From: Thomasclavelia spiroformis DSM 1552
GTDB lineage: Bacteria > Bacillota_I > Bacilli_A > Erysipelotrichales > Coprobacillaceae
Length of the DNA: 64,000 nucleotides
Direction: 5' to 3'
Assembly: GCF_025149465.1 (NCBI RefSeq)
Contig: NZ_CP102275.1
Coordinates: forward strand, 2,119,596 to 2,183,595
Positions 45,009-51,029 of the stretch are shown here, piece after piece. Both the position numbers and the translations under genes were made by a program. Numbering within the stretch: the stretch's first letter is position 1; each line of letters begins with the position of its first letter. The notes under the pieces are model-generated. The model worked only from the letters and a program-made list of their open reading frames with translations. It did no database searches and was not told the origin of the DNA.

Positions 45009-45605
45009 TTATTTGATCATTAATCCTGATGTTTTATAAAACCATTCTTTTTGGTTTTCTAAAGCAGTATCTAATGATTCATCTACTACTACATTAGTTG
45101 CTTTATTTTCAATAATGAAACCACCTATTTTAATTTCATCACTTACTTCAACTGTTAAATCAATTCCATAAGCTTTAACTAAATCATCAGCATATTTTAT
45201 ATCATTTTGTCTAAGTTTAAGAATTGAATCACTCATTTGATATAGACTACTAATCTTTTCCATATGTTTAATAAGATATGTTTTATAGTCATTGCTATTT
45301 ACAAATTCATTTAATCTGTTTTTAGCTTCTTTAAATATCTTTGCAACATAAGCTTCTCTTGTCTCAACTAACTTCTTAGTCTTCTCTTCTTGAGATAAAG
45401 AAGCTTCTACACTAGCATTAGAAGATATCTCTACTAACTCTTTAGCTAACAAAGCATCAGCATCTTTTTTTGCTTCCGCTTTAATTTGTTGATAAGCTTC
45501 TGCTTCAAGTTCTTTTGCTTCAGCCAAAATTTTTTCTTCTTCTAAACTAGCTAATCTTTCAATCTCTTCTTTCATATAAAGAAATACTTGTTCTTTCTTT
45601 TCCAT
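45009..45605 (-). CDS. ntpE: V-type ATPase subunit E (peripheral stalk)
   Basis: 198 residues: N-terminal coiled coil rich in Lys/Glu/Ala (about 1-110) and a C-terminal globular part ending IGGFIIENKATNVVVDESLDTALENQ, the usual end of subunit E. Pairs with the G/H-type subunit as a peripheral stator. AAAGGGA before the ATG; 15-nt gap to A. Confidence 0.9.
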   Translation of the reverse strand: MEKKEQVFLYMKEEIERLASLEEEKILAEAKELEAEAYQQIKAEAKKDADALLAKELVEISSNASVEASLSQEEKTKKLVETREAYVAKIFKEAKNRLNEFVNSNDYKTYLIKHMEKISSLYQMSDSILKLRQNDIKYADDLVKAYGIDLTVEVSDEIKIGGFIIENKATNVVVDESLDTALENQKEWFYKTSGLMIK

Positions 45606-45945: not shown

Positions 45946-46377
45946 TTAAATTTTATTAATAATTAAGATTGAAATTAATAACCCATAAATTGCTACCCCT
46001 TCACCTAAGGCAACAAAAATCAAAGATTTACCAAAGTTCTTTTCATTTTCAGAAAATGCTCCAATTGCAGCTGGTGCAGCAGCAGCAACAGCAATCCCTG
46101 CTCCTAAAGCTGATAAACCAGTAGCTAATGCAGCAGCTAAAAATCCTAACCCTTGAGCAATAGTCCCTGTAATTACAGCTGTTTCTTGGGCATGCACACC
46201 GTTAGTAGCTGCAGCTAAATATAGTGCTAAACCAACTGCCCCAACAAATCCAGCAACATGTGTTGCTAATCTAATTTTTGCACTCTTAACACTTACATTT
46301 CCTTTAAATACTTTAACTAATGGTAATGATAATAAAATAACTAATAATGCTGGTAAAATAAATTCTAAAACTGTCAT
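45946..46377 (-). CDS. ntpK: V-type ATPase proteolipid subunit K
   Basis: 143 residues, four transmembrane helices (about 4-20, 37-58, 72-108, 115-140) as two fused hairpins. The ion-binding glutamate is in helix 4 (VALGEGVAIYGLL); helix 2 has no carboxylate, as in Enterococcus NtpK. Whether the coupling ion is Na+ or H+ cannot be decided by eye. Forms the rotor ring. AGGAGG before the ATG. Confidence 0.95.
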   Translation of the reverse strand: MTVLEFILPALLVILLSLPLVKVFKGNVSVKSAKIRLATHVAGFVGAVGLALYLAAATNGVHAQETAVITGTIAQGLGFLAAALATGLSALGAGIAVAAAAPAAIGAFSENEKNFGKSLIFVALGEGVAIYGLLISILIINKI

Positions 46378-46397: not shown

Positions 46398-48290
46398 TTA
46401 TTCTTCTTTTATACTTTTAAACGGTATTCCGTTTCCTTCATAATATCTACTAAACATTTCGTAGAATTCTAAACGTAATACTTGGATTCCAACAATCAAT
46501 CCTTCCAAGCACATTACAAATACGTTACCAAAGATAATAACAATTATCTCACCTACTCCACCAACCATTTCTGCAAGAGTATAAACCACAAGCATCATTC
46601 CAGCATGTGATAAAACAAATCCACCTACTCTTAAAAATGACATAGTATTCGTAATGAATGATAACACTACTTCAAATAACTCAAAGAATCCTTCAACAAA
46701 AAATGCACCGAATCCATTTGGAAACATTTTTTCATCTTCTTCAAATTTTCTAATCAATGGCTCTTTTAGGAAAATGAAAAATAATGGTAAAAAAATCAAA
46801 CAAATAACATATACCATATTTACAAAATCCAATCCTAAAAACATATTAATCACTAAACCTAAAATAGAAATATAGAAAAGCAATCCACAAATTCCATTTT
46901 GGCTCAAAATAGCTTCACCTATCTGTTTTTTCTTAAAATTCAAAAAAACATTAAACGTCATAGAAATTACGATTAAAACAATTCCCAAACAAATTGCTGC
47001 AATCAATAATGTCATTGTATTATCTGGGGACATAGCATTAAACATAGGAATCAAAATTTCTTCATTTCCAAATACCGAACCAAAAACAATCCCAAACAAT
47101 GTACTAGATATTCCTAAACGAACACCTACCGCGCCTAATTGTAAGCCAAACTTTTTATAAGCAATTAAACCAACTAAGGATAAAATTACCCCTTGGCCTA
47201 CATCACCAAACATAATCCCAAATAATAAAGTATACGATAATGAAACTAATAAAGTTGGATCAGCATCATTATATTTAGGTACTCCATACATCTCCACAAA
47301 CATTCTAAATGGTTTTGAAAACCAATTATTTTTAAGCAATGTCGGTGGTGATAAACGTACATCACTATTAGCTGGCTTAATGTCAACCATCACTCCATCA
47401 AGTGCTTCAAAATCATCTTTAAATTTCTTTACATTTTTAGTTGGAACAAACCCATTAACCGAAAGTTTATCACCAATTACAACTACATACTTTTGCATCA
47501 CATACACATCATTTAAATGTTTAGCAACAGTATAAATTTTATTTAATTCATCACGTTCATTTTCAAAAATTTTAGCAATCCGTGCATTTAATTTATTACT
47601 ATGTTCCCTAGCCACATTTGCTTCTTCTTCAATTTCATTAATTGCTAGTTCTGGTGAACCATGAACAAAATACGGAATATGAATTCTTTCAAAATAAAGT
47701 GATGAAAAAATATTGTCAACTTCTGGTGCATCACTAGGAGTTGTAATATACATACACCATGTATAATGATTATCATGTTCAAACGCTTTAAATACAAATG
47801 GTAGTGATTCATAGTAATCTAACTTTGAAATATTATTTACTGGTAATTTACCAAATCTTATTTGAAGATATTTACAACTAAATAAATCATCAAAATCAAC
47901 ATCAATATCTGCAACATGACGCAATTGAATAACCGCTTCTTGATTTTCAATAATCATAGTATCTAACTGCTTTATTACAGCATGTATTCGTTCAACATCT
48001 AATAACAAATCATCTAAATATTCTTTTACTTTTAATATATTAATTTGATTATTTTCTACTTCAACTTCTTCTAACTTAAAGTTATATTTATTTGAAGCAT
48101 CATTTAAACGAACAAGAATTTCTTCATAAAGATTATCTTGATTATAGACACTAAGTCCCGTTACACTGTCAATAAACTTAGATGCCAATTCGGGATGAAA
48201 ATCATCATGACTAAAAAGTTTTAACAAAACTTCATTATAACGATATTTATCAAAATTAATACTAACTAAGTTTAATCTTGAAATAGCCAT
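46398..48290 (-). CDS. ntpI: V-type ATPase subunit I (a-type stator), full length
   Basis: 630 residues: soluble N-terminal half (about 1-320) with long antiparallel helices, then about seven to eight transmembrane helices. YTLLFGIMFGDVGQGVILSLVGL and the ion-channel segment ITNTMSFLRVGGFVLSHAGMM with the essential arginine are present. Provides the half-channels next to the K ring. 20-nt gap to K; a truncated paralogue lies directly upstream. Confidence 0.95.
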   Translation of the reverse strand: MAISRLNLVSINFDKYRYNEVLLKLFSHDDFHPELASKFIDSVTGLSVYNQDNLYEEILVRLNDASNKYNFKLEEVEVENNQINILKVKEYLDDLLLDVERIHAVIKQLDTMIIENQEAVIQLRHVADIDVDFDDLFSCKYLQIRFGKLPVNNISKLDYYESLPFVFKAFEHDNHYTWCMYITTPSDAPEVDNIFSSLYFERIHIPYFVHGSPELAINEIEEEANVAREHSNKLNARIAKIFENERDELNKIYTVAKHLNDVYVMQKYVVVIGDKLSVNGFVPTKNVKKFKDDFEALDGVMVDIKPANSDVRLSPPTLLKNNWFSKPFRMFVEMYGVPKYNDADPTLLVSLSYTLLFGIMFGDVGQGVILSLVGLIAYKKFGLQLGAVGVRLGISSTLFGIVFGSVFGNEEILIPMFNAMSPDNTMTLLIAAICLGIVLIVISMTFNVFLNFKKKQIGEAILSQNGICGLLFYISILGLVINMFLGLDFVNMVYVICLIFLPLFFIFLKEPLIRKFEEDEKMFPNGFGAFFVEGFFELFEVVLSFITNTMSFLRVGGFVLSHAGMMLVVYTLAEMVGGVGEIIVIIFGNVFVMCLEGLIVGIQVLRLEFYEMFSRYYEGNGIPFKSIKEE

Positions 48291-48301
48291 TTTATCCCCC
48301 C

Positions 48302-49663
48302 TTATATATCAACAGATTTACGTAATATCTTCTTTACAATGATTAACACTACAATTAAAATAACCCACAAACAAACACCAAACATAAAAGTATGCACAAT
48401 ATGTAATGGTAATGTAAGTAATGGCTCGTATAATTCAATTCGGTAAAATACAGTTCCGTAAAATAAACCACCAATAAATATTGCTGTTCCTACACGTTTT
48501 AAAATATTCCCAAAATTATTAGGCTTTTTAATTGTAAATAATAACCCTAATAAAATTATTAATATTCCAACCCCAATGTCTCCTATACATACTGCTCCAA
48601 TTAACATTGAAATTATTGCAACTAATACCGTTGGATCAAAAGTATCACCAATAGTAGTACTCAATATATTTTCAAATGGTTGAAATAACGAATTATTTTT
48701 TATTAATACCGGTGCAACAATATTTTTATTTTCATAAATATTAACCGGTAATTCAATTACTCTAACACTATCTATGTCACTAAATTTAGATTCTATTTCT
48801 TTAATATCAAAACTACTAAATGCATATATCGCTGCTTTTTGTGAAAAATCAACAACATAACGACATTTGTCATATAATCTTTTTAAATTATATAATCTTG
48901 TAAATACTTCTAATAGTTTTTCACTATATTCATTTCTTACATCTTCAATTTTTGTGTCCATCTTCTTAATATACTGTTCCATTGCTACTGATTCTTCATT
49001 TAATTCATCAATTGCTTCACAAACTTTCCCATGAGCAAATTCTGGAATATTAATTTGTTCGAAAGACATTGAAGAAAAAGCATTATCAATTTCAGAAATA
49101 TTATTTGTAAGACCTGCATAAACAATCCATACATACTGTTTAGAACGATTTAACTCTACAAAAATAAATTCATAATCGCGATAATATTGAATCTTATTAA
49201 ATTCTGCTAGTGGTATTTTACCAAAACGACATGTAATATACTTAGTATTTTGAACATCATCGACACTAATTTTAGAATCTTTAAGATTCTTTAATAAAAC
49301 AATTGCTTCATCATTCTCATGTTTTTCTTTAATAATATCTTCACGAACATTGATAATATTATCAATTTTTTCATTAATTTCATCTATTAACTTATTTACC
49401 TCAAATAAATTAATTTCCTCAAACTCATTATCTTTAACTCGAGTATCTAAACTTAACCGATTAAAAATATGATAGATATTATCAAGCGGTTCATTATACG
49501 GATTTACATCATCCATTACTGATACTCCTTTAACATTATGAGCTATCTTTTTTGAATCTTGTGGAAACATTTCTTCTTGATATTCAGTCATCTTGATCAA
49601 CATTTTTATTAAATCTTTTTGTTCAAAGGAAATATTAAAGAAATGTGTTTTAATAATAGCCAC
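48302..49663 (-). CDS. Truncated V-type ATPase subunit I paralogue
   Basis: 453 residues with the same opening as NtpI (soluble domain DSKKIAHNVKGVSVMDD.., YITCRFGKIPLAEFNKIQYY, INIPEFAHGKVCEAIDELNEE parallel YLQIRFGKLPVNNISKLDYY and IHIPYFVHGSPELAINEIEEE), but only about four transmembrane helices (about 345-450). It keeps a GDIGVG motif like GDVGQG of NtpI, yet ends before the channel-arginine region. GTG start, with AGGAGGG 8 nt upstream. A complete small gene rather than a broken one: no frameshift and good spacing. Could be an assembly or stator-tethering variant. Confidence 0.85.
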   Translation of the reverse strand: MAIIKTHFFNISFEQKDLIKMLIKMTEYQEEMFPQDSKKIAHNVKGVSVMDDVNPYNEPLDNIYHIFNRLSLDTRVKDNEFEEINLFEVNKLIDEINEKIDNIINVREDIIKEKHENDEAIVLLKNLKDSKISVDDVQNTKYITCRFGKIPLAEFNKIQYYRDYEFIFVELNRSKQYVWIVYAGLTNNISEIDNAFSSMSFEQINIPEFAHGKVCEAIDELNEESVAMEQYIKKMDTKIEDVRNEYSEKLLEVFTRLYNLKRLYDKCRYVVDFSQKAAIYAFSSFDIKEIESKFSDIDSVRVIELPVNIYENKNIVAPVLIKNNSLFQPFENILSTTIGDTFDPTVLVAIISMLIGAVCIGDIGVGILIILLGLLFTIKKPNNFGNILKRVGTAIFIGGLFYGTVFYRIELYEPLLTLPLHIVHTFMFGVCLWVILIVVLIIVKKILRKSVDI

Positions 49664-49676
49664 TCAACAATCCCTC

Positions 49677-50708
49677 CTATGCAAAGATTAGCATCTCTTC
49701 AATACTTGATGCATCTCTTTTATATCGTATTCCTTCGATAATATGTTTCAAATTATCGATTTCTACTTTTTGTAGAATTGAATAGGTTAAATATACTAAT
49801 GGCGCATTACTTGAAAAGCGCATATATCGTTTAGCAATATTATATTTAATCTCTTCAACATAATATTCAATATAAGTATAGTCTTTATCTCCAATATATA
49901 ACTTATATTTAGAATTAGATAATAACTCTAATACTTCCTCACCACTACGTGCTTCAATTAATGAATCTAACATTGCTTTAGATATTCGACAATGTTCTAA
50001 ATATAAAGATTTTCTAATTGTTTCATTTGATTCTTTAAAATACTTTTTAAAACGATAAATTTTAGTAATATTAGCTAGTTCAATTGATGTAGATAAAATC
50101 TCCATCAACTCCTTTTGTTTACTACCCTTAAAATTACTTTTAATTGAATCAACATACATATCATAATATAAAGACTTTAATTGACGTTCCAATAAATTAA
50201 TATCTATTGGTGCCGTAAAATCAAAATTAGATAATATCTTATAATATCTAGTATTTTTTAGATACATAACTAAATCCTTATAATTACCAACATTTACCAA
50301 TCCATAAATATTAAAACTAATTTTACTCGCTAAATAATCAGGAATTTCTAAAGAAAAGCTCGCCTGATCTTTTTCTTTAATACTAACAACTTTATCAACA
50401 ATCAATTGAACCTCAATTCCAATAACCTCCTGGTTATAAAAATCCTGATTCTTTTTTGGTGCATATTTCATCAATCTAGCACAGCGCTCAAAATATTCTT
50501 TATTTAAAGCAGCTTCTAACTGTCGACGACGAACATTTCTAACATTGACGTCTTTTAATACATCACTATACTTTGTTTGCGATTTTAGATAAGTCACCAT
50601 CTCGCCAAGCGTTTGTTTTCTACACAAATCACTATAGCTTTCTTCATTAAGACGATATCCATACATCGCTTTTGCCTTTGCACATAGTGCATTTGACGAC
50701 AAAGCCAT
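49677..50708 (-). CDS. ntpC: V-type ATPase subunit C (d-type, rotor socket)
   Basis: 343 residues, all-helical, with NALCAKAKAMYGYRL at the start and repeated Leu/Lys/Tyr-rich helices as in subunit C of V/A-type ATPases, which links the central stalk to the K ring. AAGGTG before the ATG. It is placed before the I genes rather than between E and F as in Enterococcus. Confidence 0.88.
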   Translation of the reverse strand: MALSSNALCAKAKAMYGYRLNEESYSDLCRKQTLGEMVTYLKSQTKYSDVLKDVNVRNVRRRQLEAALNKEYFERCARLMKYAPKKNQDFYNQEVIGIEVQLIVDKVVSIKEKDQASFSLEIPDYLASKISFNIYGLVNVGNYKDLVMYLKNTRYYKILSNFDFTAPIDINLLERQLKSLYYDMYVDSIKSNFKGSKQKELMEILSTSIELANITKIYRFKKYFKESNETIRKSLYLEHCRISKAMLDSLIEARSGEEVLELLSNSKYKLYIGDKDYTYIEYYVEEIKYNIAKRYMRFSSNAPLVYLTYSILQKVEIDNLKHIIEGIRYKRDASSIEEMLIFA

Positions 50709-50720
50709 ACATTCACCTTC

Positions 50721-51029
50721 TTACTTTAAACATCTTTCAACAATTTCATTTATCCATTTATCTTTATTTGAATTATAAAGATTTTCCAAGTTATTTAAAA
50801 CATTTTTAAATTCTTGGTGTTGTTGTTTTGCATTTTCTTGATTTTTATTTATCAATTCACTTTTATAATCTTCAATTTTTTGATTTTGTTCCAAAACAAA
50901 ACCATCATATATTTCTTTTCTCTTTTCATTCATATTAGTTTGAGCATCAAGTTTTTTAGCTTTTGCCTTTTCAACTCGTTCGACACATTTACGGTCAATC
51001 TCTACTAATCTTTGAATAACATCATCCAT
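50721..51029 (-). CDS. V-type ATPase peripheral-stalk subunit (G/H type, NtpF-like)
   Basis: 102 residues forming one long charged coiled coil rich in Lys, Glu, Gln and Asn (VERVEKAKAKKLDAQTN). First gene of the ATPase operon, where the ntpF/ahaH-type stalk subunit sits in other Firmicutes; partner of subunit E. AGGGGG 6 nt before the ATG. Confidence 0.82.
   Translation of the reverse strand: MDDVIQRLVEIDRKCVERVEKAKAKKLDAQTNMNEKRKEIYDGFVLEQNQKIEDYKSELINKNQENAKQQHQEFKNVLNNLENLYNSNKDKWINEIVERCLK

Follow-up and report, generated by a model that had tools for sequence, protein, structure and literature searches.

A conserved second subunit I without the channel region in the V-ATPase operon of Coprobacillaceae, a candidate accessory stator arm

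Published descriptions of prokaryotic V/A-ATPases give them a single subunit I and a pair of EG peripheral stalks; eukaryotic V-ATPases have three stalks and an adaptor, subunit C. In the Thermus enzyme, the distal lobe of subunit I binds an EG stalk. The V-ATPase of E. hirae has dual asymmetric stalks, and its subunit a carries the arginines R573 and R629 (PMC10382590). When Thermus Vo is isolated, the distal lobe of its subunit I touches subunit d and blocks rotation (PMC7367684). In the eukaryotic V-ATPase, the head of subunit C (Vma5) holds the third EG, and this subunit is reported to have no homologue among the A- and F-type ATPases (PMC6131620). The open-access literature that we searched contains no description of a second arm lacking the channel, and an article on distant family links (PMC5706428) makes no mention of one.

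The window analysed here is a stretch of 64,000 nucleotides from Thomasclavelia spiroformis DSM 1552, to which the positions below refer, and it carries on the minus strand a V-ATPase operon with the order G, C, short I, I, K, F, E, A, B, D. The first gene encodes the stalk subunit G (50721..51029), whose Pfam V-ATPase_G score falls under its cut-off, and it is followed by subunit C (d / AC39; 49677..50708), the short subunit I, hereafter sI (48302..49663, 453 aa), and the full-length subunit I (46398..48290, 630 aa). Further on are the c-ring subunit K (45946..46377) and the stalk subunit E (45009..45605), the latter named by sequence and operon position. The complete 2.53-Mb genome has this single E gene and contains no second Pfam subunit I locus. 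The Thermus and Enterococcus V/A-ATPases, with one I and two EG stalks, are alike in their other subunits and in having a single E gene but, unlike the Coprobacillaceae enzyme, they have no second I. Subunit K shows a single PF00137 hairpin (residues 80-139); in the roughly 75 residues before it, two hydrophobic stretches run up to GVHAQE, which looks like the end of a signal peptide.

The sI gene is a single open frame with a GTG start, TAGGAGGG lies eight bases 5' of this start, and 11 bp separate the stop codon from the full I gene. The first-pass annotation had described two adjoining subunit I-type genes, the upstream one short but intact, in the operon and with a good ribosome binding site, and the one open 453-aa frame bears this out. 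Aligned with the adjoining full I, the protein shows 27% identity across 445 aa (E 1e-54), covering full I residues 1-442, and its profile matches Thermus I at E 1.9e-12. Its predicted architecture consists of a proximal lobe, two long coiled-coil helices, a distal lobe (residues ~130-212; 49028..49276) and four membrane helices, TM1-4 (residues 344-447; 48323..48634), with both pairs of coordinates derived from residue numbers. The AlphaFold2 model, which is of low confidence (pLDDT 59.5, alignment of six sequences), places these helices at residues 344-360, 363-379, 383-406 and 419-447.

sI ends after the fourth predicted helix, ahead of the segment bearing SFLRVGGFVLSH in full I; the modelled helices and the alignment agree on this point with the earlier reading, in which the protein stops after about four helices and before the channel arginine region. 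SFLRVGGFVLSH occurs in full I only, where it carries arginine 554 by count from the sequence, and a second arginine is found near position 606. Judged by their place in the sequence, these two residues probably correspond to R573 and R629 in subunit a of E. hirae. Compared with V/A-ATPase subunit I (NtpI; eukaryotic subunit a; PF01496), sI is homologous over nearly its full length and has the same arm fold; it differs in having neither TM5-8 nor the two channel arginines and in sitting beside the full I, not in its place. Since TM7-8 are lost, the alignment shows sI to be without the part that passes ions next to the c-ring. The DPT and GDxGxG motifs of TM1-2 are kept, the latter in the form GDIGVG, and all representative short copies with membrane helices share D344, G362 and D363 (I numbering). 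Other fixed residues of sI differ from those fixed in I, as at I position 408, which is Y in sI and G in I. A Pfam scan of sI at E 0.001 returned no family, PF01496 included. A 508-aa relative scored 13.3 bits against PF01496, below the gathering threshold of 30.7, and the NCBIfam subunit I models gave sI 65.6 bits, far under their cut-off of 766.

The conservation of the gene, which the first-pass annotation had proposed to survey, was followed in 43 genomes of Coprobacillaceae representing 20 genera. Each of the other eight Thomasclavelia members has it (66-78% identity), and intact copies are present in 14 of the 20 genera of the family, in the slot between C and I save for three relocated copies. 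Two main sizes are found, 452-459 aa with TM1-4 and ~495-518 aa with TM5-6 also kept; in none of the short copies aligned are TM7-8 present with the channel arginines. The gene is missing from the V-ATPase operon in six genomes (G007, G009, G029, G030, G011 and G031). Intact relocated copies of 435-436 aa were found outside the operon in three genomes from two genera: G011 (L054:6239-7549), G031 (L055:6004-7311) and G032 (L064:6029-7336). The neighbours of the relocated gene, named from sequence, include an rsmF-like methyltransferase and an NlpC/P60 protein in L055, and aro-like genes lie near it in L054 and L064. In the one-contig genome G001, sI is frameshifted into 387 + 128 aa (L050:10215-11740), which reflects either a recent loss or a sequencing error, and the copy of G021 is split and contains unresolved bases. 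Because some family members are without the gene (G007, G009, G029 and G030) and that of G001 is frameshifted, sI is dispensable in Coprobacillaceae. The concern that it might be absent from close relatives is answered within the genus; beyond it, a few family members have no copy or a broken one, and all 12 operons read in the sister family f2 have a single I.

A class-wide search with full I revealed a second form, consisting of soluble arms of 320-341 aa that have no membrane helices and lie between C and I. These arms are present in three genera of f22, a family of another order, and as single cases in G452 (family f11) and G018 (Coprobacillaceae); most of the other operons read in f22, f11, f15 and f17 are without such a gene. 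A phylum-wide search with a soluble-arm profile gave no further kind, although the I proteins of other phyla are so divergent that it could have missed one there, and the viral contigs searched for alignment depth yielded no relative.

The 31 sI proteins with membrane helices form one clade (100/100), and its branching mirrors the I tree. Because a tree built from the arm only pairs sI as sister with the I of its own family (99/98), we place its origin, on phylogenetic grounds, in a subunit I duplication close to the base of Coprobacillaceae. The f22 arms fall together with the subunit I of f22 (93/99), and forcing them into one clade with sI costs 145 units of lnL (p-AU 5e-34). A single ancient duplication for both is thus rejected, so the trees indicate at least two independent origins of short I copies. 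The soluble copy of G018 may belong with sI (AU p 0.30 for this placement), and that of G452 is suggested to be of separate origin, given its place within f11, although its branch is very long and a single genome carries it. The G452 arm (L102:3321-4292) is of odd composition, and its distal lobe still has the VDNIFSSLLFERI signature.

Across eight Thomasclavelia species, sI has a dN/dS of 0.154; the values for other subunits are 0.078 (I), 0.183 (E), 0.115 (G) and 0.041 (A). Within the first 50 codons, a region in which sI has diverged from I, pN is 0.072 in sI and 0.111 in I, so that sI is the tighter of the two. Where signs of decay such as relaxed codon constraint might have been expected of a broken copy, we found purifying selection instead. 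A chance open reading frame or a pseudogene is ruled out by homology, dN/dS and clade structure; sI is an intact gene that is not decaying, and its product probably works as an additional part of the enzyme.

The part of the protein on which selection acts can be followed by its retention, defined as identity to sister-family subunit I relative to each genome's own full I. For the distal lobe, retention is 0.78 in sI, 0.91 in the f22 arms, 0.83 in G018 and 0.75 in G452, and for the proximal C-terminal lobe the corresponding values are 0.51, 0.71, 0.41 and 0.36. TM3-4 is the lowest region of sI (0.38), and the ratios for the coiled coils say little, as these are poorly conserved even between full I proteins. 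Selection is shown to keep the cytosolic arm of sI, above all its distal lobe. Because this lobe outlasts the proximal one in lineages of separate origin, the comparison points to the distal lobe as the working part of the short I copies.

The first-pass annotation had suggested a heterodimeric or alternative stator, or a regulator that competes for the peripheral stalks. Of these, an extra stator arm gains support from the conservation of the gene, purifying selection, the fixed operon slot, the independent re-invention of soluble arms and the retention of the distal lobe. We tentatively favour the reading that sI is an accessory stator arm that binds an EG peripheral stalk, most likely a third such stalk, in the manner of eukaryotic subunit C; it is the most plausible of those considered, although the absence of the gene in some family members, its frameshift in G001 and its position away from the operon in three genomes count against it. 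EG binding, a third stalk and the stoichiometry of sI are what we infer from this pattern; a retained distal lobe could have a partner other than EG, because the Thermus distal lobe also contacts subunit d (PMC7367684). The same contact, which stops rotation in isolated Thermus Vo (PMC7367684), lends something to a different and unlikely role, in which the distal lobe of sI would bind d or capture free EG or V1 and act as a brake or competitor that holds unassembled or idle parts inactive and non-leaking. Such a role agrees with the distal lobe being the part kept and with a gene that is dispensable in some genera and able to leave the operon, but a regulator need not adjoin C in the operon in lineages that evolved it independently.

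Less likely still is an assembly factor that would keep hold of EG or C/d and depart once full I and the c-ring have been installed. The sI gene lies just ahead of I, so its product would be made first, and soluble forms exist, but relatives assemble their V-ATPase without sI and we know of no prokaryotic precedent for a factor of this type. Pairing of the two I proteins within the membrane, with sI forming a heterodimer with full I or giving the stator a second membrane wall, seems improbable: TM1-4 and GDxGxG occur in all Coprobacillaceae sI, together with signature residues of their own, yet TM3-4 is the least retained region, and a purely membrane heterodimer is disfavoured because the soluble arms of another order do without membrane helices. 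We give the least credence to a duplicate with a role outside the V-ATPase or to a slowly lost relic, for which relocation in three genomes, the frameshift of G001 and loss in several genera could be cited, against a dN/dS of 0.154, a clade that mirrors I and a fixed operon slot.

As a duplicate of subunit I, sI has lost TM7-8 and, in Thomasclavelia, also TM5-6. If it is an accessory stator arm, its distal lobe would bind the foot of an EG stalk. This EG would most likely be a third one, standing on the B-subunit site that the two known stalks do not occupy. The proximal lobe, which has diverged, would dock on another partner, for example the arm of full I, and the remaining membrane helices would serve as an optional anchor. 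Such an enzyme would have three stalks, like the eukaryotic V-ATPase and in contrast to the two of Thermus and Enterococcus, with all of its E and G subunits being products of the same single genes.

The eukaryotic counterpart of this arrangement, the third-stalk adaptor subunit C, likewise has two lobes and a long coiled coil, and the f22 soluble arms are of comparable size. The fold matches of the sI model are led by subunit I/a (3rrk, Z 11.9, 262 residues, 6.7 A), and the match to eukaryotic subunit C (1u7l; Z 9.1, rmsd 8.7 over 214 residues) does not reach the level that is reliable for long helices. Because the full I model also matches subunit C (its pLDDT of 50.8 is too poor for contacts), we treat the match as a hint that says nothing firm about ancestry, and it may reflect only the shared lobe-coiled coil-lobe layout. 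The soluble arms scanned had no match to PF03223 at E 1 and the profile searches returned no Vma5 chain, although distant relatives can be missed by such searches. The likeness that we propose to subunit C is one of role and not of descent.

The sI-bearing enzyme is a familiar machine in a new form, and the function of its extra arm can be put to the test. It is a bolder and rather doubtful step to suppose that several bacterial lineages independently made a subunit I duplicate into a third-stalk adaptor, giving three-stalk bacterial V-ATPases in which a subunit C-like part would have come from a stator arm in living steps with 6, 4 and 0 membrane helices. If a channel-less arm has indeed been selected repeatedly, stalk number and the origin of the adaptor would become directly testable in culturable gut bacteria.

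Two further features of the window lie outside the operon. Just past its end is a transposase DDE fragment (PF13751; window:40567-41016), and a group II intron-type reverse transcriptase with a maturase domain (RVT_1, GIIM; window:54138-55556) is located downstream of an aminopeptidase-like gene.
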